The translations under genes and the position numbers were made by a program. Shown in pieces: positions 46,136 to 62,218 of a stretch of 64,000 bases of DNA. The stretch's first letter is position 1, and every line of letters begins with the position of its first letter. The stretch comes from Sphingomonas crusticola (lineage in GTDB: Bacteria > Pseudomonadota > Alphaproteobacteria > Sphingomonadales > Sphingomonadaceae), in contig NZ_QTJP01000001.1 of the NCBI RefSeq assembly GCF_003391115.1, positions 3,122,501-3,186,500 on the forward strand, written 5' to 3'. The notes under the pieces were generated by a model that did no database searches, was not told the DNA's origin, and saw only the letters and a list, made by a program, of their open reading frames with translations.

Positions 46136-46837
46136 ATGCTGACGAATGACGATAAACAGACGGCGGTGGTGCTCGTCTCGGGCGGGCTCGACTCGATGGT
46201 GGTGGCCGCGCTGGCGGTGGAGGCCGGGCACAGGCTGGTCGCGCTGACGATCGATTATAATCAGCGCCACCGCATTGAGCTGGAGGCCGCGGCGCGCATT
46301 GCTACCCACTTGGGGGCGATCCGTCACATCGTGCTGCCGCTCGATCTGACGCGGTTTGGCGGGTCGTCGCTGACCGACACTGCCATGAACGTGCCCAAGG
46401 AGGGCGTGCAGCCGGGCATTCCCAGCACCTACGTGCCCGCGCGCAACACGATCTTCCTGAGCCTGGCGCTCGGGCTGGCTGAAGCGACCGGTGCGCGCGC
46501 CATCCATATCGGCGTCAATGCGCTGGATTATTCGGGCTATCCCGATTGCCGGCCGGAATTCGTGGCGGCGTTCGAGACGCTCGCCAACCTTGCTACCAAG
46601 GCGGGGGTGGAGGGCGACAGCTTCAAGGTCCACACGCCTCTGCTGCATATGACCAAAGCCGATATCGCCGCGGAGGCGGCACGGTTGGGGCTCGATGCCG
46701 GCATGAGCTGGTCATGCTACGATCCGCAGCCGGGCGACCTGCATTGCGGCCGCTGCGACTCGTGCCGGCTGCGCAGCAAGGGGTTCGAGGAAGCCGGGCT
46801 GGCTGATCCGACCCGTTACGCGGTGCCGCCGGCGTGA
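46136..46837 (+). CDS. queC: 7-cyano-7-deazaguanine synthase
   Basis: A 233-residue ATP-dependent enzyme of queuosine synthesis making preQ0. The PP-loop LVSGGLDSMVVAAL is at residues about 12-25. The C-terminal zinc site lies in LHCGRCDSCRLRSKGFEEAG, together with the cysteine of SWSCYDP. It overlaps queE by 4 bases (GTGA). No ribosome site precedes the ATG. Confidence 0.97.
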   Translation: MLTNDDKQTAVVLVSGGLDSMVVAALAVEAGHRLVALTIDYNQRHRIELEAAARIATHLGAIRHIVLPLDLTRFGGSSLTDTAMNVPKEGVQPGIPSTYVPARNTIFLSLALGLAEATGARAIHIGVNALDYSGYPDCRPEFVAAFETLANLATKAGVEGDSFKVHTPLLHMTKADIAAEAARLGLDAGMSWSCYDPQPGDLHCGRCDSCRLRSKGFEEAGLADPTRYAVPPA

Positions 46838-47481
46838 GCTACGCCGTCAAGGAGATGTTCCTGACATTGCAGGGGGAGGGGCTGCAGGCGGGCATGCGTG
46901 CGGTGTTCCTGCGCTTCGCCGGCTGCAATCTGTGGTCGGGGCGCGAACAGGATCGCGCTGATGCGCAATGCAGCTTCTGTGATACCGATTTCGTCGGCAT
47001 GGACGGCGACGGCGGCGGGCGTTTCGCCGATGCGGCGGCGGTGACGGAGGCGGCGTGGACCTTGTGGAGCGGGGGGCTCGAAGGAAGCGGCGGAGGTACG
47101 CCGCTGATCGTGATCACCGGCGGCGAGCCCATGTTGCAGCTGGATGATGCGCTGGTGGCTGCGCTCAAGGGGCGCAGCTTTCGCGTCGCGATCGAAACCA
47201 ATGGCACATTGCCGGTGGCGGACGGGGTTGACTGGATCTGCGTCAGCCCCAAAGCCGGCACCGAGATCGTCCAGCGAAGCGGCGACGAGCTCAAACTGGT
47301 GTGGCCGCAGCAGGGGCTGGATCCGCGCGAACTGGAAAGCTGGGACTTCCGGCATCTGCTCGTCCAGCCGATGGACGGCGTCGATGCCGCGGCAGCGCGC
47401 GGGGCGGCGATCGATTTCGTGATTGCAAACCCGCGCTGGCGACTGTCGGTACAGACGCACAAACTGCTCGGGCTGCGCTAG
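46834..47481 (+). CDS. queE: 7-carboxy-7-deazaguanine synthase
   Basis: A 215-residue radical-SAM enzyme acting one step before QueC. The cluster cysteines are arranged with a long insertion: CNLWSGREQDRADAQCSFCD, as in proteobacterial QueE. ITGGEPMLQLDDAL follows. It starts with GTG overlapping the queC stop. The rest of the queuosine path (queD and others) is not in the window. Confidence 0.96.
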   Translation: MSYAVKEMFLTLQGEGLQAGMRAVFLRFAGCNLWSGREQDRADAQCSFCDTDFVGMDGDGGGRFADAAAVTEAAWTLWSGGLEGSGGGTPLIVITGGEPMLQLDDALVAALKGRSFRVAIETNGTLPVADGVDWICVSPKAGTEIVQRSGDELKLVWPQQGLDPRELESWDFRHLLVQPMDGVDAAAARGAAIDFVIANPRWRLSVQTHKLLGLR

Positions 47482-51294: not shown

Positions 51295-52899
51295 GTGATT
51301 ACACGACGCAAGTTGCTCGAACGGCTGGGCCATCTTGGTGGATTGGGGGCGACCTTCAGCGCGATGCAGGCGCTGGGACTGATGAGTAAGGCGCGCGCGG
51401 CGGGGATGCCGGCGCTGCCGCCGACGCTCGGCAAGGGCAAGCATGTAATCGTGTTGGGTGCGGGCATTTCCGGGCTCGTATCCGCCTACGAACTGGAGCA
51501 GGCGGGTTTCCTCGTCACCTTGCTCGAGGCGCGCGAGCGCGTCGGCGGACGTGCCTGGACGGTGCGTGACGGCGATAAGATCGAAATGAACGGGGAAGAG
51601 ACGCAGACCGCGCGTTTCTCGGACGGCGCCTATTTCAATGCCGGTCCGGCGCGTATCCCGAGCTTCCACACCGGCCTGCTCGGCTATGCGGACAAATTCG
51701 GTGTGCCGCTCGAAGTCGAAGTCAATTCCAGCCGCTCCGCTTACGTCGTCGCCGACGACGGCACCAAGATGCGCCAGCGCACGGCCGTGAACGACATGCG
51801 CGGCCACATTGCCGAATTGCTCTCCAAAGCAGTCAGCCAAGGCGCGCTCGACCAGCAGCTCACGCCCGCCGACAAGGAGAAGTTGCTGCCGTTCCTGCGC
51901 TTCTATGGCGATCTCGACGAGAAAGGCTCGTTCGCCGGAACGGCGCGGTCCGGCTTCGACGCGCTACCCGGTGCCGGGCCGACTTTCGCGACCAGCTATC
52001 CCCCACGGCCGCTGTCCGCGTTGCTCGCCAACCAGCAGCTGCCGATGACCCTTTTCGACGACGTGTTCTACATGCAGGCAACCATGGTCGAGCCGGTCGG
52101 CGGCATGGATCGGATTCACGCCGGCTTCGACCGCAACCTCAAGCATCCCGCGGTACGGGGCGCGGAAGTTACGCGTATCCGCGACACCGCGAAGGGTGTC
52201 GAAGTCGTCTATCGCGACAAGGGGTCCGGCGTGATGAACACGGTTTCGGGCGATTATCTGATCTGCACCATCCCGTTCCCGGTGCTGACCTCGATCGACA
52301 CCAATTTCTCCAAGCCGGTGAAGCAGGCGATTGCGGGCGTGGTCTACGATTATTCCAACAAGATCGCTTTCGACGCGCCGCGCTTCTGGGAGAAGGAGGA
52401 CCAGATTTACGGAGGCATCACTTTCGTCGGCGGGCCGACCAGCCTGATCTGGTATCCATCCGCCGCGATCCATTCGGCACGCGGCATGCTGCTTGCCTGC
52501 TATGCCTCCGGCCCGATCGCCGCCGATTTCCAGAAGCGTCCGATCGCCGAGCAGATCGAATATGCGCGCGGCGTGGTGGAGAAGGTCCATCCCGGCCATG
52601 GCAAGGACCTCGCCAACGGCATCGCGGTCAACTGGCACAAGATCCCCTACAGCCTTGGGCCATGGCCGGCCTGGAATCCGGCGCAGGCGGGGCGGCAGGA
52701 AGGCAATATCGATACGCCGGCCTTCCGCCTGCTGCAGAAACCTGACGGGCGGATCTACTTCGCCAGTGCCGCCCTCAGTCAGACACCGGGCTGGCAGGAA
52801 GGGGGCATCGCGTCCGCCCATTATCAGGTGACTGCGCTCGCGGCGCGCGTCACTGCCCAGGCGATGGTCGAGCCTCGATATGCGCGGGTTGCAGCCTGA
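51295..52899 (+). CDS. Flavin-dependent amine oxidase with twin-arginine signal
   Basis: A 534-residue FAD enzyme of the monoamine/L-amino-acid oxidase family. The N-terminus MITRRKLLERLGHLGGLGAT has an Arg-Arg pair, a hydrophobic stretch and ARAAG, fitting a Tat signal (about 1-37). The FAD dinucleotide motif VIVLGAGISGLVSAYELEQA (about 51-70) continues with EARERVGGRAW. The C-terminus has the second FAD motif IYFASAALSQTPGWQEGGIASA. It would oxidise an amine or amino acid to an imine with peroxide release, probably outside the cytosol. The next gene starts 1 base after its stop. Confidence 0.88.
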   Translation: MITRRKLLERLGHLGGLGATFSAMQALGLMSKARAAGMPALPPTLGKGKHVIVLGAGISGLVSAYELEQAGFLVTLLEARERVGGRAWTVRDGDKIEMNGEETQTARFSDGAYFNAGPARIPSFHTGLLGYADKFGVPLEVEVNSSRSAYVVADDGTKMRQRTAVNDMRGHIAELLSKAVSQGALDQQLTPADKEKLLPFLRFYGDLDEKGSFAGTARSGFDALPGAGPTFATSYPPRPLSALLANQQLPMTLFDDVFYMQATMVEPVGGMDRIHAGFDRNLKHPAVRGAEVTRIRDTAKGVEVVYRDKGSGVMNTVSGDYLICTIPFPVLTSIDTNFSKPVKQAIAGVVYDYSNKIAFDAPRFWEKEDQIYGGITFVGGPTSLIWYPSAAIHSARGMLLACYASGPIAADFQKRPIAEQIEYARGVVEKVHPGHGKDLANGIAVNWHKIPYSLGPWPAWNPAQAGRQEGNIDTPAFRLLQKPDGRIYFASAALSQTPGWQEGGIASAHYQVTALAARVTAQAMVEPRYARVAA

Positions 52900-52900
52900 C

Positions 52901-53467
52901 ATGTCCGACGCCGGCCGAACCATCCGGGCCGGCGTCATCATCCGGCCGGCGCGCGCGCCGGACATCCCGGTCCTCGAGCCGTTGATCACCGCATCGGCAC
53001 GCGCGCTGAGTGCAGGCTTTTACAGTGCACGCGAGATCGAGGCGGCAATTGAGCACGTCTTCGGCGTCGATTCCGACCTTGTCGCCGACGGAACCTACTT
53101 CGTCGCCGAGGAGGAGGGAGAGATTGTCGGCTGCGGCGGCTGGAGCCGACAGCGGACCTTGTTCGGCGGCGATCGCTTTGCTGCCCGCGAGCCCGGCTAT
53201 CTCGATCCGGCCAGCGAGGCCGCACGCATGAGGGCGTTCTTCGTGGCGCCGGGTCATGCCCGCAAGGGGGTCGCCACAAAGCTGTTGGCGGCATGCGAGG
53301 CCGCCGCCATCGCCGCCGGCTTCACGCGCGGTGCCCTGATGGCGACCTTGCCCGGCGTGCCGTTCTACGCGGCGCATGGCTACCGGCCAGGGGAGGCGGT
53401 TAGCTATCAATGCGGAGATACGGCTGTCCGCTTCGTCGCCATGGTAAAAGAATTGTTGCCGAAATGA
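52901..53467 (+). CDS. GNAT-family acetyltransferase
   Basis: A 188-residue GNAT protein. VIIRPARAPDIPVLEPLI opens the fold, RAFFVAPGHARKGVATKLL holds the acetyl-CoA loop (about residues 112-130), and PFYAAHGYRPGEAV closes it. ATG 52901 lies one base after the amine oxidase stop (TGAcATG), so the two are coupled. The likely role is acetylation of an amine related to the oxidase substrate or product; this is inferred from coupling. Confidence 0.85.
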   Translation: MSDAGRTIRAGVIIRPARAPDIPVLEPLITASARALSAGFYSAREIEAAIEHVFGVDSDLVADGTYFVAEEEGEIVGCGGWSRQRTLFGGDRFAAREPGYLDPASEAARMRAFFVAPGHARKGVATKLLAACEAAAIAAGFTRGALMATLPGVPFYAAHGYRPGEAVSYQCGDTAVRFVAMVKELLPK

Positions 53468-53559
53468 TACAGGCACGCTCCGTATTAGCCGCTAAATCTT
53501 CGGGAGCGTCGGAGCACTTGCAGCACCTGATCATTAAGATAGCTTCTTGAACGTAGTTG

Positions 53560-53571
53560 ATTCGCGCGAAT
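53560..53571. promoter_or_regulatory. 12-base palindrome upstream of the TonB-dependent receptor gene
   Basis: ATTCGCGCGAAT, perfectly self-complementary, in an otherwise AT-rich leader 163 bases before the receptor start. Candidate regulator site only. Confidence 0.3.
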
Positions 53572-53734
53572 GAGGAGAAATGATTCGCTGTAAACTTAAC
53601 AGGCTCATTCGGGGGATGAAAAACAACTTTCCGCTTCGCGGAGGGTTGGCGCTTGTACAAAATTAAAAAAGCGACAGATCATAGTCGTGTTCGGTGAGAG
53701 GCTCCTGAGGCTTAGGTTTCATTTAGGGGGCTAT

Positions 53735-56254
53735 ATGAATACGAACATTGGCATGATTTCGCGCGTGGCGATCGCCGCGGCGCTGATCGCTGGCGCGCAG
53801 GCAGCAAAAGCTGCGGATCCGGCACCTGCACCAGCCAGCCCGGCGGGGGTATCCGCAGATGATGAGGTGATCGTCACCGGCACGCGCTCAGTCGGCATCA
53901 CCGCGGCGGAAAGCGCGGCACCGATCAAGTTGCTGGGGGCCGAGGCGATCGAGCATGTCGGCCAACCCAACCTCAACCAGGTGCTGACCCAGCTCATTCC
54001 TTCGTTCAACGCTGCAGCGTTCGGCGGCGACACCGCCCAGCTAACATTGTCGGCCCGTCTGCGCGGCCTCAGCCCCAACCACACGCTGGTCCTCGTCAAC
54101 GGCAAGCGCCGCCACGGCACGGCCAACCTGGCAGTGTTGTCGGGCGTCAGCCAGGGCGGCGCCGCTCCCGATCTCGATTTCATCACGCCTTCCTCGATCA
54201 AGCGCATCGAAGTGCTGGAGGACGGCGCCGCGGCCCAATATGGCTCCGACGCCATCGCCGGCGTTATCAACATCATCCTCAAGGACAGCGATAACGGTGG
54301 TTCCGCCAGCGCGACGGCGGGGCAATATTACAAGAGCGATGGCAAGATCGTCTCGGGCAACGTCAATCTCGGCACCAAATTGGGCGAGGGCGGGTTCATC
54401 AACCTGACCGGCATGTACCGCTACCACCAGCGCAGCCAGGTCGGCGGCATCGATCGTCGTGTCTACCTGCCCGACGGCACCGTCCGTTCGACCGCCACCG
54501 GCCTCTCGCCGCAGCAGGTCGCGCTCTACCAGAATCTGCCGGGGGCACCCTACGTCAACCGCATCTTCGGCGATCCACAATCCAAGCTGGCACAAGGCGG
54601 GTTCAACGCCGGTTACGATTTTGGCGACGTTCAGCTCTACAGCTTCGGCACGTACAGCCACCGCACCGCCGCCGCTTATGAGAATTATCGCGTGCCCGAC
54701 CGCGTGCGTTACTCGCCGGTGCTGGGCGTCCAGGGATCGCTTACCACGCCCGGCGAAGTGCTGTTCAACCCACTCGGCTTCAACCCGCAGGAAGCGTTCC
54801 GCGAGGACGACGCCGCGATCACCGGCGGCGCCAAGGGCGATCTGGCCGGTTTCCACTGGGATGTGAGCGCCACCTATGGCCGCGACCAGGACAAGATCTA
54901 CACCAAGAATTCAGCCAATGCCGCGCTGTATGTCGACACCCATTTCACGCCGACGACGATGTATGACGGCAAGTTCATCAACGATGAACTGACGCTCAAC
55001 GCGGACTTTTCCAAGGAGATCGACGTCGGGCTTGCCGGGCCGCTCAACGTCGCCTTCGGCGCCGAATATCGCAAGAATGGCTACACGATCGGCAGCGGCG
55101 ACCCCGCGTCGATCTACAAGGAAGGCGGCCAATCCTATCCGGGCTTCCAGCCGACCGACGCCGGGCATCATACGCGCAAGAATGAAAGCGCCTATATCGA
55201 CATCGCGCTCAATCCATTCGAAGGTCTCAAGCTCGACGCAGCGGGCCGCTACGAACATTATTCCGATTTCGGGAGCGAAGTCATTGGCAAGCTGACGGCG
55301 CGCTATGATTTCACTCCGGAGGTCGCCATCCGCGGCACTATTTCGAACGGCTTCCGCGCTCCGACGCTGGCGGAGGAGTTCTACTCTGCGACCAACGTGT
55401 CGCCGACGTCGGCGACGGTGCAGCTACCGGCCAATTCGGCGGCGGCCAAGCTGATCGGCTTCGACAATCTCCGCCCGGAAAAGTCGTTCAACATCAGCGC
55501 CGGCGCGGTCTTCCGGCCGATCGATCGGGCCACGCTGACGATCGATTATTATCATATCCGCATCAAGGATCGTGTCGTCGGCTCCGGCACGCTGTTCGGC
55601 CTCGGCGGCGCGACCAACGATCCACGGGTGCTGCTGGCCATCGCCGCGCACGGCAACGTGCTGGATCCAACGGTGACGCAGGTCGGGGTGGCGGCGTTCA
55701 CCAACGGGCTCAACACCAACACCAACGGCGTCGACGTGGTCGGCAGCTATATGATCCCGTCCGATTATGGCAGCTTCAACCTGACGTTGTCGGGCAATTA
55801 TAACGACATCAAGATTTCCAAGATCGACCCGGTCGCGGCGACCTTGCTGGACAGGACATCGACGAGCACGCTCGAACACTCGTCGCCGAAGTTCAAGGTC
55901 ATCGGCGGGCTCAACTGGTCGCTGGACCGCTTCTCGCTGACGGCGCGCGAAACGCTCTATGGCAAGTCCTACATCCTCTACAGCCCCAACGGGGGGACCT
56001 ATTACAAGAACCAGGTCAAAACGGCCGCTATCACCGATCTTGAGGTAGGGGTCGATCTCACCAAAAGCCTCAAATTCTCCGTGGGTTCGAACAATCTGTT
56101 CAACAAGAAGCCCTCCAAGGTGGTGGCCGTCCCCGGCAGCGGTCCGGTGCTGACGCTTTCCACCGCCGGCAACGTCTACGACGCTCCCAACACGTTCTCC
56201 GCCTACGGTATCAATGGCGGCTATTATTACGCGCGGATCGACTTCAGCTTCTAG
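53735..56254 (+). CDS. TonB-dependent outer-membrane receptor
   Basis: An 839-residue receptor. The signal peptide spans about residues 1-27 (ending AKAAD). The TonB-box-like DDEVIVTGTR and the plug domain (about 40-165; LRGLSPNHTLVLVNGKRRHG, IKRIEVLEDGAAAQYGSDAI) precede a 22-strand-type barrel ending in aromatic FSF. GGGGG precedes ATG 53735. It imports a bulky or scarce solute; the neighbours (amine oxidase, GNAT, RidA) suggest an amine, peptide or amino-acid-derived compound, but the ligand cannot be read from sequence. Confidence 0.95.
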   Translation: MNTNIGMISRVAIAAALIAGAQAAKAADPAPAPASPAGVSADDEVIVTGTRSVGITAAESAAPIKLLGAEAIEHVGQPNLNQVLTQLIPSFNAAAFGGDTAQLTLSARLRGLSPNHTLVLVNGKRRHGTANLAVLSGVSQGGAAPDLDFITPSSIKRIEVLEDGAAAQYGSDAIAGVINIILKDSDNGGSASATAGQYYKSDGKIVSGNVNLGTKLGEGGFINLTGMYRYHQRSQVGGIDRRVYLPDGTVRSTATGLSPQQVALYQNLPGAPYVNRIFGDPQSKLAQGGFNAGYDFGDVQLYSFGTYSHRTAAAYENYRVPDRVRYSPVLGVQGSLTTPGEVLFNPLGFNPQEAFREDDAAITGGAKGDLAGFHWDVSATYGRDQDKIYTKNSANAALYVDTHFTPTTMYDGKFINDELTLNADFSKEIDVGLAGPLNVAFGAEYRKNGYTIGSGDPASIYKEGGQSYPGFQPTDAGHHTRKNESAYIDIALNPFEGLKLDAAGRYEHYSDFGSEVIGKLTARYDFTPEVAIRGTISNGFRAPTLAEEFYSATNVSPTSATVQLPANSAAAKLIGFDNLRPEKSFNISAGAVFRPIDRATLTIDYYHIRIKDRVVGSGTLFGLGGATNDPRVLLAIAAHGNVLDPTVTQVGVAAFTNGLNTNTNGVDVVGSYMIPSDYGSFNLTLSGNYNDIKISKIDPVAATLLDRTSTSTLEHSSPKFKVIGGLNWSLDRFSLTARETLYGKSYILYSPNGGTYYKNQVKTAAITDLEVGVDLTKSLKFSVGSNNLFNKKPSKVVAVPGSGPVLTLSTAGNVYDAPNTFSAYGINGGYYYARIDFSF

Positions 56255-56274
56255 ATCGTAGCGCGGGTACAACC

Positions 56275-56309
56275 GGAGGCGGCGTCCGCGCGACGTCGCC
56301 TCCTTCTTC
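56275..56309 (+). terminator. Terminator-like hairpin between the receptor and RidA genes
   Basis: GGAGGCGGCGTC (56275-56286) and GACGTCGCCTCC (56292-56303) pair with one wobble, followed by TTCTTC. It lies between the receptor stop and the RidA-family start and would reduce, not abolish, read-through. Confidence 0.65.
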
Positions 56310-56321
56310 GCACAGGGGAAG

Positions 56322-56831
56322 ATGATGAAAGCCTATTGTCTTATCGCCGCTGCAGGACTGCTCGCGACAGCAGCGCCGGCCGCCGAGATCACGCGCTTCA
56401 AAACAGTCGGCCCGACGCCGGCATTGATCCTGCAGGGGGTGCTGGTGCCGCCCGGTGCCGAGACGCTCTATTTGTCCGGGCAACTCGCCGCACCAATCCA
56501 TCCTGCCAAGCCGACGTCGCCACCGCTGACGATGGCCGACTATGGCGATACCAAGACGCAGACGGTGAGCACGCTCACCAAGATCAAGGGGATATTGGCG
56601 AGTCACGGCTACGCCATGTCGGACATCATCAAGATGACGGTGTTCCTCGCCGGCGACCCGGCGCTTGGCGGCAAGATGGATTTTGCCGGCATGAACGACG
56701 GTTTCAAGATGTTCTTTGGGACGGCCGACAACCCGAATACGGTCGCGCGTTCCACCATCCAGGTGGCGGCCCTGGCCGGTCCCGCTTTCCTGGTCGAGAT
56801 CGAGGTTACCGCAGCCAAGATGCCCAGATGA
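56322..56831 (+). CDS. RidA/YjgF-family protein with a signal peptide
   Basis: A 169-residue RidA-superfamily protein. The N-terminus MMKAYCLIAAAGLLATAAPAA is a typical signal peptide, so it should be periplasmic. The core includes TLYLSGQLA, TLTKIKGILASHGYAMSDII, KMTVFLAG and ARSTIQVAALAGPAFLVEIE, with the conserved Arg near residue 143 that binds the carboxylate of 2-iminoacids in active RidA proteins. Cytosolic RidA hydrolyses reactive imines; an exported version next to a probably exported amine oxidase suggests the same job in the envelope. Confidence 0.88.
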   Translation: MMKAYCLIAAAGLLATAAPAAEITRFKTVGPTPALILQGVLVPPGAETLYLSGQLAAPIHPAKPTSPPLTMADYGDTKTQTVSTLTKIKGILASHGYAMSDIIKMTVFLAGDPALGGKMDFAGMNDGFKMFFGTADNPNTVARSTIQVAALAGPAFLVEIEVTAAKMPR

Positions 56832-56957: not shown

Positions 56958-57968
56958 ATGACGGAGGCCACGATACGCGACGTCGCGCGGGAAGCGCAGC
57001 TGTCGGTCGCCTCGGTATCGCGCGCGCTCAACGGCCATAAGAGCGTTCGCCCCGAAACACGGGCGCGGATCGTCGCGGTGGCGGACGAACTCGGCTATGT
57101 TCCGCATGCCGGCGCGCGCAGCCTGAGCATGGCGCGATCGAACGCGATCGGCGTGGTCCTGCCGGACCTCCACGGCGAATTCTTTTCCGAGATCGTGCGG
57201 GGCATGGATCGCGAGGCCACACGGCTTGGCCTGCAATTGCTGCTGTCGAACATGCACGCCGATCCGGTTCAGGCGGGCCTGGCATTGCGCGCGATGCATG
57301 GACGCGTCGACGGCCTGCTGATCATGTGCCCGCAGATGCGATCCGAGGGGTGGGCCGGATCCTTGCCGCGTGGCCTGCCGGCGGTGCTGCTCAACACGTC
57401 CGAGCCGACGATGGACCGACCGTCCATGGCAATCGACAATCGCGCGGGCGCGGCTGCCATAGCGCGCCATCTGGTGAGTATCGGGCGACGTTCGATCGTG
57501 CACATTGCCGGGCCCGATCACAACGTCGATGCGCGCGAACGGCACAAAGGTTTCGAGGACGTGATCCGCGCCGAGGCGCCGGATGCGGTCATCACCGTGC
57601 TCCCCGGCGATTTCAACGAGGAGAGCGGGGAGGCTGCCGCCGCCCAAATCCTCTCGAGCGGCATGAAGGTCGATGCCATCTTCGCCGCAAACGACATGAT
57701 GGCGGTCGGCTGCCTTCAGGCGTTGCGTGCCGCCGGCGTGCGCGTGCCCGAGGAGATCGCCGTCGCCGGCTTCGATGACGTGCCGATCGCGCGCTACCTC
57801 GCGCTCACGACAGCCCGCGTGCGGATCGCGGAGATCGGTGCGCGTGCCGTGATCCGTCTGACCGAAATCATGAGCGGTCACGAGGAAGGGGCCAAAATCG
57901 AGGTGCAGATTCCGGAGCTGGTCGTGCGTGGCACCACCCAGATGCCGGACCCGAGCGACGCTCCTTAA
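56958..57968 (+). CDS. LacI/GalR-family transcriptional regulator
   Basis: A 336-residue repressor. The helix-turn-helix and hinge (ATIRDVAREAQLSVASVSRA, residues 4-23; HAGARSLSMARSNAIGVVLP) are followed by the effector-binding domain ending in VAGFDDVPIARYLALTTARV. It starts 126 bases after RidA and is followed 136 bases later by the GH144-like gene, which carries a consensus operator (58055-58068). The probable effector is a glucan-derived sugar. Confidence 0.95.
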   Translation: MTEATIRDVAREAQLSVASVSRALNGHKSVRPETRARIVAVADELGYVPHAGARSLSMARSNAIGVVLPDLHGEFFSEIVRGMDREATRLGLQLLLSNMHADPVQAGLALRAMHGRVDGLLIMCPQMRSEGWAGSLPRGLPAVLLNTSEPTMDRPSMAIDNRAGAAAIARHLVSIGRRSIVHIAGPDHNVDARERHKGFEDVIRAEAPDAVITVLPGDFNEESGEAAAAQILSSGMKVDAIFAANDMMAVGCLQALRAAGVRVPEEIAVAGFDDVPIARYLALTTARVRIAEIGARAVIRLTEIMSGHEEGAKIEVQIPELVVRGTTQMPDPSDAP

Positions 57969-60691: not shown

Positions 60692-62218
60692 TCAGCCGCC
60701 CGGCGCCGCGCAGCAGCGCGCGATGAACTGTTCGTGCGCGGGCATCAGCGAGACGTTCGATGCAACCACCTTCTCGACGTGATCGACCAAGGCGTGCAGA
60801 TCATGGTCCGCGATCCAATCGACCGCCGGGTGATAGGTGCGGGGATGCAGCCCTTGGCCGAGCATAACCTGGACCCAGCTCGTTAGGCCGAACATCTCCG
60901 TGCCGTTGCGGAAGAACTGACCGTTGGCCACGAACAGGTCGATATAGGATTGTAGGGTATCCGGAATCCGCATCGTCCGGACGTAATTCCAGAATTCCGA
61001 ATCCGTCCGTTGCGTGACGTGGTAATGGAGGATCAGGAAATCCCGGATCCTTTCATATTCGAAGTCCGTCTGCTCGTTATAGACATTCTGCAGCGCGATA
61101 TCGCAGTCGGCATTGGGGAACAGGCTCATCACGCGGTTAATGCCCGCCTGCACCAGATAGATGGCGGTCGATTCCAGCGGTTCGAGAAAGCCGCCGGCGA
61201 GGCCAATCGCGATGACGTTGCGATCCCATAATTTGCGGCGCTTGCCGGTCGTGAAACGGAGCGGCCTGGGATCGGCCTGCGCCTTTCCGTCGAGGTTTGC
61301 GAGCAGGATATCGGCCGCGCGATCGTCGGTCATGAACTGGCTGCTATAGACGTGGCCGTTACCCGTCCGATGCTGGAGCGGGATGCGCCACTGCCAGCCC
61401 GCTTCGCGCGCGGTGGAGCGCGTATAGGGGGCGGGCGGGCCGACCTTTTCGCACGGCACCGCCAGCGCGCGGTCGCAAGGCAACCAGTGCGTCCAGTCGT
61501 CGAAGTCCACGCCTAAGGCATTCCCGATCAGCAGCGAGCGGAAGCCGGTGCAATCGAGGAAAAGATCTGCCTCGACATGATCGCCATTCTCGAGCTGGAC
61601 GCTCTCGACGAACCCGTTGTCGGTGTGGCGATGGACGGCGATGACCTTGCCTTCGATCCGCCGAGCGCCCTGTGCTTCGGCGCGCCGCCGCAGGAAGCGC
61701 GCATAGAGCGTCGCGTCGAAATGATAGGCATAGGCGATCTCGGCCAAGGGTGAGTTGGGCGGCGCGTCGCTCGGCGGGGCCGTGAATTTGTCGAGCGGCG
61801 CTGCCACCGTATTGATCGAGTAGCGACCGATATCCTTGCCGCGGCCGTGGGCGCGCGCTTTCAGCCAATATTGGTGGAAGGGCAGGAGGCCGACATCGCG
61901 CCCGATCGTGCCAAAACCATGGACGTAGCTGTCGCCAATCCGCCCCCAGTCGTTGAACTGGATACCGAGCTTGAAACTGCCCTGGGTCTGGCGAACGAAC
62001 TCTGCCTCGTCGATCCCAAGCAGGCGGTTGAATGCGGAGAGGTGGGGCACCGTCGCTTCGCCGACACCGATGATGCCGATCTCGTCGGATTCGACCAAAG
62101 TGACGTCGATCTGGCGGCCGAAGACCTTCGAGATTGCGGCTGCGGCCATCCAGCCGGCCGATCCACCGCCGATTATAGCGATTGAACGGATCGGGCGCCC
62201 GGTTTGCTGCTGCGTCAT
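60692..62218 (-). CDS. Flavin-dependent tryptophan-halogenase-family protein
   Basis: 508 residues. The FAD motif IAIIGGGSAGWMAAAAI is at about residues 13-29. The catalytic lysine of the family is present (Lys83 in SFKLGIQF). The halogenase signature W-x-W-x-I-P is present as WQWRIP (about 274-279), and the LAGGFLEPLESTAIYL segment (about 338-353) carries the conserved glutamate. These motifs place it with PrnA/RebH-type enzymes that make hypohalous acid and halogenate indoles or phenols. No biosynthetic cluster is adjacent; the neighbour is a TonB-dependent receptor, a setting known for many Xanthomonas, Caulobacter and Sphingomonas members. A separate flavin reductase is not in the window. 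Confidence 0.93.
   Translation of the reverse strand: MTQQQTGRPIRSIAIIGGGSAGWMAAAAISKVFGRQIDVTLVESDEIGIIGVGEATVPHLSAFNRLLGIDEAEFVRQTQGSFKLGIQFNDWGRIGDSYVHGFGTIGRDVGLLPFHQYWLKARAHGRGKDIGRYSINTVAAPLDKFTAPPSDAPPNSPLAEIAYAYHFDATLYARFLRRRAEAQGARRIEGKVIAVHRHTDNGFVESVQLENGDHVEADLFLDCTGFRSLLIGNALGVDFDDWTHWLPCDRALAVPCEKVGPPAPYTRSTAREAGWQWRIPLQHRTGNGHVYSSQFMTDDRAADILLANLDGKAQADPRPLRFTTGKRRKLWDRNVIAIGLAGGFLEPLESTAIYLVQAGINRVMSLFPNADCDIALQNVYNEQTDFEYERIRDFLILHYHVTQRTDSEFWNYVRTMRIPDTLQSYIDLFVANGQFFRNGTEMFGLTSWVQVMLGQGLHPRTYHPAVDWIADHDLHALVDHVEKVVASNVSLMPAHEQFIARCCAAPGG

Follow-up and report, generated by a model that had tools for sequence, protein, structure and literature searches.

Within a 64,000-nucleotide stretch of the Sphingomonas crusticola contig NZ_QTJP01000001.1, hereafter the window, positions 51295–56831 of the plus strand carry four intact open reading frames (ORFs) that encode, in this order, a predicted L-amino-acid oxidase (LAAO), a GNAT acetyltransferase, a TonB-dependent receptor (TBDR), and a protein of the Rid family (Table 1). 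An initial annotation, made from the letters, had described an oxidase, a GNAT gene one base past its stop, a TonB receptor, and a RidA-family protein, all on one strand, and both the ORFs and Pfam bear this out. All matches are above cut-off: Amino_oxidase (2.8e-41) for the LAAO, GNAT (1.9e-12), TonB barrel (2.7e-33) and plug (1.5e-18) for the receptor, and Ribonuc_L-PSP (5.8e-15) for Rid. Among the NCBIfam matches listed for seven window proteins (for the LAAO the best 25 of 35), none attains its cut-off.

The LAAO starts with GTG, and several close relatives begin M-I/V-T-R-R. The ATG of the GNAT gene lies 1 base past the LAAO stop (TGA, 52897–52899); a gap of 267 bases precedes the ATG of the TBDR, and 67 bases separate TBDR and Rid. 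A promoter scan returned 4 sites against 1.8 in shuffled sequence, every one on the minus strand; a terminator scan returned 3 against 5.4, with none between the four genes on the plus strand.

Table 1. Features of the four-gene cluster, in window coordinates
Feature	Position	Strand	Basis
LAAO (L-amino-acid oxidase, predicted)	51295..52899	+	ORF; PF01593 2.8e-41; 2JAE 8e-83 over residues 47-522; tree
Probable Tat signal peptide of LAAO, MITRRKLL...ARA	51295..51399	+	Cleavage guessed by eye; RR in 88/96 relatives
Ala119-Arg120 of LAAO	51649..51654	+	Arg in 96/96 LAAOs; residue 119 separates LAAO groups
GNAT acetyltransferase, 188 aa, export signal not seen	52901..53467	+	ORF; Pfam; model pLDDT 93.9, GNAT fold
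TBDR (TonB-dependent receptor), 839 aa, signal peptide 1-26 by eye, plug and barrel	53735..56254	+	ORF; Pfam; structure model
Rid protein, 169 aa, predicted to be exported	56322..56831	+	ORF; Pfam; nearest solved relatives PFL1385 and PSPTO3006
Probable Sec signal peptide of Rid	56322..56381	+	By eye, cleavage guess APA-AE; N-terminal hydrophobicity test

The oxidase and the Rid protein

Among solved structures, the window LAAO is closest to the LAAO of Rhodococcus opacus (2JAE, 8e-83, query residues 47–522), with reconstructed tetrapod LAAOs next at about 1e-33. In the alignment with 2JAE, Arg120 falls on the arginine of the RIP motif, and it is present in all 96 relatives; we take the aligned residue to be Arg84 of the R. 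opacus enzyme, which binds the substrate carboxylate, and a literature search for active-site residues of that enzyme found none. Lys356, which by its position is presumably the flavin-N5 lysine, and Trp500 are kept in all 90 rows of the two LAAO groups compared below; the positions of Tyr403 and Trp457 vary, the latter strongly so in the cytochrome-linked group. By sequence, the window protein is an L-amino-acid oxidase.

Its N-terminus, MITRRKLLERLG...ARA-A, reads by eye as a signal for twin-arginine translocation (Tat), as the initial annotation had seen in its Arg-Arg pair. The pair stands ahead of the GxGxxG motif for flavin adenine dinucleotide (FAD) in 88/96 LAAOs, the eight exceptions being four with KR and four that are truncated or misparsed. 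Tat export of the LAAO is thus probable.

For the Rid protein, the closest solved structures are PFL1385 (6.8e-30, PDB 9bkc) and PSPTO3006 (3.8e-26, PDB 9bka), and the next relative reaches only 1.4e-8. PFL_1385 and PSPTO_3006 are placed in the Rid3 subfamily and deaminate the imines that a venom LAAO produces from Leu, Gln, Phe, Met, and His, as well as iminoarginine (PMC5619798). Alignment to solved Rid proteins gives Arg143 as the catalytic Arg, matching RidA Arg105 (PMC5619798) and kept in 29/29 sequences, as are Ser52, Gly53, and Glu159 (29/29 each); the core residues whose loss would have spoken against the initial annotation are therefore in place.

The Rid N-terminus, MMKAYCLIAAAGLLATAAPA-AE, was read by eye as a Sec signal. 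A crude test for an N-terminal hydrophobic stretch (threshold 1.4) is passed by 103 of the 110 exported-type Rid proteins that could be scored, and some of the seven failures come from a misplaced anchor; a further eight could not be anchored. The test is weak: the window protein reaches 2.19, and the two other Rid proteins encoded in its genome come up to 1.07 and 1.29, not far below the threshold. An alpha/beta-hydrolase-like ORF adjoins one of these two genes, and by eye no signal peptide is visible in either, so that the exported form appears to be an extra copy. Sec export of Rid is probable on these grounds, and the signal peptide claimed at the outset stands as a reading by eye that most relatives share. 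Rid proteins are discussed mostly as a means of damage control in the cytosol.

Conservation of the neighborhood

Three samples were searched: a family sample of 119 genomes, a class sample of 240 genomes, and a named scan holding the best 80 of 348 confirmed relatives, which favors close relatives because of that selection. Together they yield 103 non-duplicate Rid loci, the window itself not being among them; nine of the 79 loci of the named scan were dropped as duplicates because their contigs equal a family-sample contig in length, and L152 was retained although it is near-identical to L057. Family-sample loci supplied the models for LAAO, Rid, TBDR, GNAT, and a small cytochrome c (CytC), so that the counts in that sample are partly circular; the class-sample genomes from outside the family are independent of them. 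In the family sample, 33/119 genomes matched Rid at 0.001, and seven matches weaker than 1e-30 were left uncounted; LAAO was called present at E <1e-40, so that G023 (7.9e-29), which has no Rid, was taken as lacking it, and a broken LAAO (G090) and a broken Rid (G029) were both counted as present. In the class sample, Rid was called above 130 bits, and seven genomes at 60–63 bits were left uncounted. The TBDR model was applied at 400 bits and is not module-specific.

With these definitions, the exported-type Rid occurs in 26 and the LAAO in 21 genomes of the family sample, and no LAAO genome is without the Rid (21 of 21; Fisher p 6e-19, with genomes treated as independent and shared descent ignored). 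The class sample holds eight genomes with Rid, 11 with LAAO, and seven with both; outside the family of the window, five of the six Rid genomes have the LAAO (p 1e-7), and at all five of these loci Rid, LAAO, and CytC lie in one cluster. Just one of them, L163 from another family, also has the receptor and the acetyltransferase, in the order Rid-TBDR-LAAO-CytC-GNAT. The LAAO-CytC-Rid arrangement recurs in Xanthomonas, Comamonas, Mesorhizobium, and Dokdonella, and LAAO-Rid in Granulicella; the module is found also in Acidobacteriaceae and in many metagenome-assembled genomes (MAGs). The conserved neighborhood that the initial annotation proposed to look for thus exists, as co-occurrence and as linkage, in sphingomonads and beyond.

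Which genes belong to the set? When neighbors were clustered in 35 family-sample loci, each centered on Rid or LAAO, the families that came after these two were TBDR (21 loci), an unlabelled family of about 145 aa (12), and GNAT (eight), the next families being present in five loci or fewer. The family of about 145 aa is a cytochrome c, as one annotated member indicates. Within 6 kb of Rid, among the 103 loci, LAAO is found in 72, TBDR in 58, CytC in 49, and GNAT in 23; the small cytochrome c is hence a fifth part of the system in 49 of these loci, and the window cluster has no such gene. Adjacent pairs share a strand in 69/69 cases for CytC-LAAO, 24/24 for LAAO-Rid, 17/17 for GNAT-TBDR, 17/18 for LAAO-TBDR, and 42/58 for Rid-TBDR. 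The full window order, LAAO-GNAT-TBDR-Rid, recurs in three non-duplicate loci, L043, L048 (Sphingomonas ursincola KR-99, on the same contig as L086), and L077 (Sphingomonas sp. 37zxx).

A second flavoenzyme shares this setting. A protein of the DAO family (Pfam in two members; its solved relatives are D-amino-acid oxidases) lies within about 10 kb in 11/120 non-duplicate loci; in nine of these 11 a lipobox comes after an RR pair, and in eight an ORF that encodes a CXXCH motif lies no more than 600 bases away. At L060, from the genus of the window itself, the DAO-like protein stands with a cytochrome, a GNAT, two TBDRs, and a Rid. That another flavoenzyme family expected to make imino acids is found in this company supports the imine reading of Rid.

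The receptor has one paralogue in the window genome, with 38% identity and 318 bits, and the remaining receptors score below 75 bits; no other module gene was found in the 19.5-kb stretch around this paralogue. In the family sample, 15 of the 16 TBDRs at least 46% identical to that of the window (itself included) belong to loci with Rid or LAAO. The module receptors form one group at 46–63% and another at 33–38% identity to the window protein, with a few at 42–43%, and the 33–38% group is no closer to it than many unlinked receptors. A fold search with the receptor returned generic siderophore, B12, and other receptors, in a ranking that cannot separate ligand classes. As regards substrate import, the receptor is linked to the module, and nothing more.

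The acetyltransferase goes together with the receptor: all eight family-sample GNATs at least 54% identical to that of the window (itself included) adjoin the TBDR of a module locus, and just 2/23 weaker ones lie in module loci (G094, G036). Its fold search matched many small-molecule acetyltransferases (PaiA, phosphinothricin, ArsN), with 12–23% identity among the matches listed, and points to no substrate. The roles given below to the TBDR and to its ACETYLTRANSFERASE partner are inferred.

A number of variants and further neighbors accompany the module. Seven loci (L061, L063, L126, L134, L137, L141, L148) have GNAT-TBDR-Rid and no LAAO; an Amidohydro_3-type enzyme (by Pfam on L063) is close by in four of these, and in genomes G020 and G106 LAAO-CytC is located away from the GNAT-TBDR-Rid locus. 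Xanthomonas has, directly 3' of the exported Rid, an aminotransferase of class I/II (L129, 10499–11701, by Pfam) that seems to carry a Tat signal; its family is also present in L131, L135, L139, L149, and L151, and an exported aminotransferase dependent on pyridoxal phosphate (PLP) would be unusual. A TPR-sulfotransferase stands by the TBDR in the Novosphingobium loci L107 (10444–12444), L109, L113, and L116 (Pfam on L107 and L116), in three of them between CytC and TBDR. A hybrid histidine kinase family is found near the module in 18 loci (L054, L058, L071, L079, L090, L101, L102, and 11 more) and a LuxR-type response regulator in 13, of which 11 are shared with the kinase (one member of each annotated); both are candidates for control of the module. 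An AcrB-type efflux transporter is near the module in nine loci (L058, 1154–4276, by Pfam, and eight more).

Two groups of LAAO and the electron acceptor

A tree of 96 LAAOs, weak at its deepest forks, requires just two changes of the label "cytochrome c within 300 bases." The window LAAO belongs to a group of 24, none with an adjacent cytochrome c, and the other large group has 67 rows, of which 66 carry the label. L111 does not; it belongs to two LAAO genes in tandem, with a cytochrome gene at the other end of the pair. On the same tree the labels for TBDR, GNAT, and Rid change 17, nine, and nine times, more often than that for the cytochrome, so that both forms of LAAO share these partners.

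The window cluster has no cytochrome c gene between its four genes, and the one CytC query run against the window genome gave no close homologue, its sole match scoring 22.8 bits. Other Tat flavoprotein amine oxidoreductases, encoded without a nearby CytC, reacted fast with O2, and those with one generally did not (PMC12224317); by this rule of adjacency the window enzyme should be an oxidase. The missing neighbor was also considered as proof of an oxidase, which it is not.

The residue directly before the invariant Arg120 sets the groups apart. Position 119 is Trp in 66/66 cytochrome-linked LAAOs and, in the 30 others, Ala (27), Gly (two), or Trp (one, the tandem partner L111); its equivalent is Thr in the R. 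opacus LAAO and Met in the reconstructed tetrapod LAAO. A causal role for residue 119 was considered and rejected: the events on the tree are few, five further columns discriminate the groups (six in all), the Rheinheimera LAAOs are an exception, and the residues near the flavin are often common to dehydrogenases and oxidases, with no simple residue rule among the enzymes of PMC12224317. Any column that changed would discriminate the groups, because few branches separate them. What sets the use of O2 or cytochrome c in flavoprotein amine oxidoreductases is an open question according to the same source (PMC12224317). The LAAO family offers a clean natural contrast for this choice, as a lead for a residue swap and not as proof.

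Other putative carriers stand near related oxidases. In Rheinheimera, a protein with two CXXCH motifs, thus two-haem, lies between LAAO and Rid (L153, 9372–10004) in place of the single-haem cytochrome, and L154 encodes one of equal length at that place. In Comamonas and Xanthomonas, an azurin/plastocyanin-type copper protein (L133, 10526–11032, by Pfam; also L129, L135, L139, L149, L151) is found near LAAO-CytC-Rid, a possible further electron carrier.

A proposed envelope module and its rivals

On balance, we favor reading the cluster as the sphingomonad version of a widespread envelope module for the oxidative deamination of amino acids, in which Rid clears the imino acids. The Tat-exported, FAD-loaded LAAO would oxidize L-amino acids to imino acids in the periplasm, and the Sec-exported Rid would hydrolyze these to 2-oxo acids and ammonium, keeping reactive imines low where cytosolic Rid proteins cannot reach. 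The reduced flavin of the window enzyme most likely hands its electrons to O2, giving H2O2, an acceptor suggested for its group because no cytochrome c gene adjoins the LAAO; in the cytochrome-linked sister enzymes the electrons would pass to the adjacent small cytochrome c. For the TBDR, the probable task is import of an amino-acid-bearing compound through the outer membrane; for the cytosolic GNAT, it is probably the acetylation of an amine that belongs to this pathway. A broader formulation is offered more tentatively, as a possibility to be entertained: an unnamed, widespread envelope module would combine a receptor and a GNAT with an exported LAAO (joined in some relatives by a DAO-like Tat lipoprotein) and an exported Rid that moves imine hydrolysis into the periplasm, and would exist in cytochrome-c- and O2-coupled forms, with residue 119 marking, perhaps setting, the form.

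Several observations weigh against this picture. Within 6 kb of Rid, the LAAO is missing from 31 of the 103 Rid loci and all four partners are missing from 12, and just 23 have a GNAT nearby. The same distance around the LAAO includes no Rid for 16 of the 96 LAAO copies; the family sample has five genomes with Rid but without any LAAO, and in the class sample the exported-type Rid is absent from four of the 11 LAAO genomes. A TBDR 50% identical to that of the window occurs in genome G008, which has neither Rid nor LAAO, and the unlinked TBDR paralogue in the window genome scores 613 on the TBDR model, over the 400-bit threshold. The AlphaFold model of the window TBDR (pLDDT 71.9) best matches catecholate-siderophore and B12 receptors. 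The Rheinheimera LAAOs (L153, L154) have Ala at position 119 despite another adjacent cytochrome, and, with one CytC query run, a cytochrome for the window enzyme may be encoded elsewhere in the genome.

Part of this was already described. The initial annotation knew of no system with this set of genes, a claim that has to be withdrawn for its core, since two such systems are published. In the lao-cccA-ridA cluster of Gluconacetobacter diazotrophicus PAL5, a Tat LAAO related to that of R. opacus shares one cluster with ridA; the transcripts of all three genes were measured in one Tn5 mutant and were all reduced, the LAAO is needed for indole-3-acetic acid (IAA), and the authors, who report the lao cluster as conserved in Caulobacter and Xanthomonas, propose a periplasmic LAAO aided by RidA and the cytochrome (PMC5053998). 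The window differs in that GNAT and TBDR sit between LAAO and Rid and that a cytochrome c gene is absent; in the accessible parts of the account, a TBDR, a GNAT, or a remark on export of RidA was not found (PMC5053998). In Chlamydomonas reinhardtii, the periplasmic LAO1 is drawn with a RidA-type partner, LAO2/RIDA, and deaminates external amino acids, but this is a eukaryote, and a TBDR, GNAT, or cytochrome partner was not found in the available text (PMC10805672).

More distant likenesses exist as well. RidA/Rid3 genes are reported to cluster with FAD amine oxidases (PMC4433059). The Rid3 proteins PFL_1385 and PSPTO_3006 are the nearest solved relatives of the window Rid and have the Arg in common with it, and the PFL1385 chain also begins like a signal by eye, but they were studied purified with venom LAAO or DauA and not with an LAAO of their own (PMC5619798); the terms "signal" and "periplasm" do not occur in the accessible text of that paper. 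The NicA2-type amine dehydrogenases that use cytochrome c belong with Tat flavoprotein amine oxidoreductases for which a CytC gene is a frequent though not constant partner, much as in the two LAAO groups, but that set was gathered by BLAST from NicA2, and the window LAAO has no adjacent CytC (PMC12224317); "L-amino acid," "Rid," and "TonB" are absent from the part of the text at hand. The ong chitin-oxidation cluster of Pseudoalteromonas likewise joins a TBDR, a RidA-family gene, and an amine-handling enzyme, but its catabolic enzymes are cytoplasmic, its substrate is an oxidized amino sugar, and an LAAO is not in its gene list (PMC9537276, in the accessible parts).

The openly licensed literature searched gave no description that joins LAAO, RidA, and a TonB receptor, nor of the association with TBDR and GNAT or of the split between cytochrome-free and cytochrome-linked LAAOs. 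With the oxidase-Rid core known, what is new here is that an LAAO-Rid pair free of cytochrome is joined by a receptor and an acetyltransferase. More generally, a signal-bearing branch of Rid goes with an exported, predicted imine-making enzyme in Proteobacteria and Acidobacteriaceae, which makes periplasmic imine hydrolysis testable.

Could the receptor be the true center of the cluster? In that case the TBDR would import an amino-acid-derived chelate, as a metallophore or another TonB ligand, and LAAO, Rid, and GNAT would process it instead of serving growth on amino acids. The 58 adjacent TBDR-Rid pairs, the 17/17 GNAT-TBDR neighbors on one strand, the 19/103 Rid loci that have a TBDR (11 of them with a GNAT) and no LAAO within 6 kb, and the resemblance of the TBDR model to catecholate and B12 receptors all point this way. 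Yet 22 Rid loci, including those of Xanthomonas, Comamonas, and Mesorhizobium, have LAAO, CytC, and Rid without TBDR or GNAT, no iron or siderophore gene appears among the annotated recurring neighbors (most clusters were left unannotated), and the fold ranking does not tell ligand classes apart; we regard uptake of this kind as unlikely to be the purpose. An auxin-type signaling role, with the conversion of extracellular L-tryptophan via indole-3-pyruvate to IAA as the main job and nutrient gain secondary, draws on two Tn5 insertions in the G. diazotrophicus LAAO gene GDI2456, which cut indolic compounds by about 96% (PMC5053998), and on the formation of IAA from Trp by Chlamydomonas LAO1 (PMC10805672). 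This role is rather improbable, given that the module is also present in Acidobacteriaceae and many MAGs and that no IAA gene was found among the annotated recurring neighbor families, most neighbor clusters having been left unannotated. LAAOs of the R. opacus type are, in addition, usually broad in substrate, which counts against a task centered on tryptophan.

Toxicity of secreted LAAOs is a known theme, and peroxide is the expected product of the window group, which has no adjacent cytochrome; both would fit an O2-using LAAO that makes H2O2 and ammonium against competitors, with Rid merely protecting the producer. Nothing seen predicts release from the cell, however, and the cytochrome-linked form, from which little peroxide is expected, retains the same Rid and TBDR partners, so that an antibacterial generator seems very unlikely. 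Finally, the genes might be unrelated ones put together by chance in this lineage, as the linkage of GNAT in just 23/103 Rid loci and the three recurrences of the four-gene order could suggest. Against this stand the co-occurrence of LAAO and Rid in 21/21 family genomes (p 6e-19) and in five of six Rid genomes outside (p 1e-7), together with the 8/8 close GNATs adjoining a module TBDR and the 15/16 close TBDRs in Rid or LAAO loci, and chance is hardly credible.

Downstream of Rid lie a LacI-family regulator (56958–57968, plus strand) and a glucoamylase-like protein (PF10091, 58104–60302, plus strand), which look like a separate unit, and, beyond the cluster, a tryptophan halogenase (60692–62218, minus strand; PF04820, 3e-191). 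All three were considered as parts of the module and left out of the system because they gave no match at 1e-20 in 129 related loci. On the other side of the cluster, two overlapping ORFs at 46136–47481 (plus strand) resemble queC and queE by eye.

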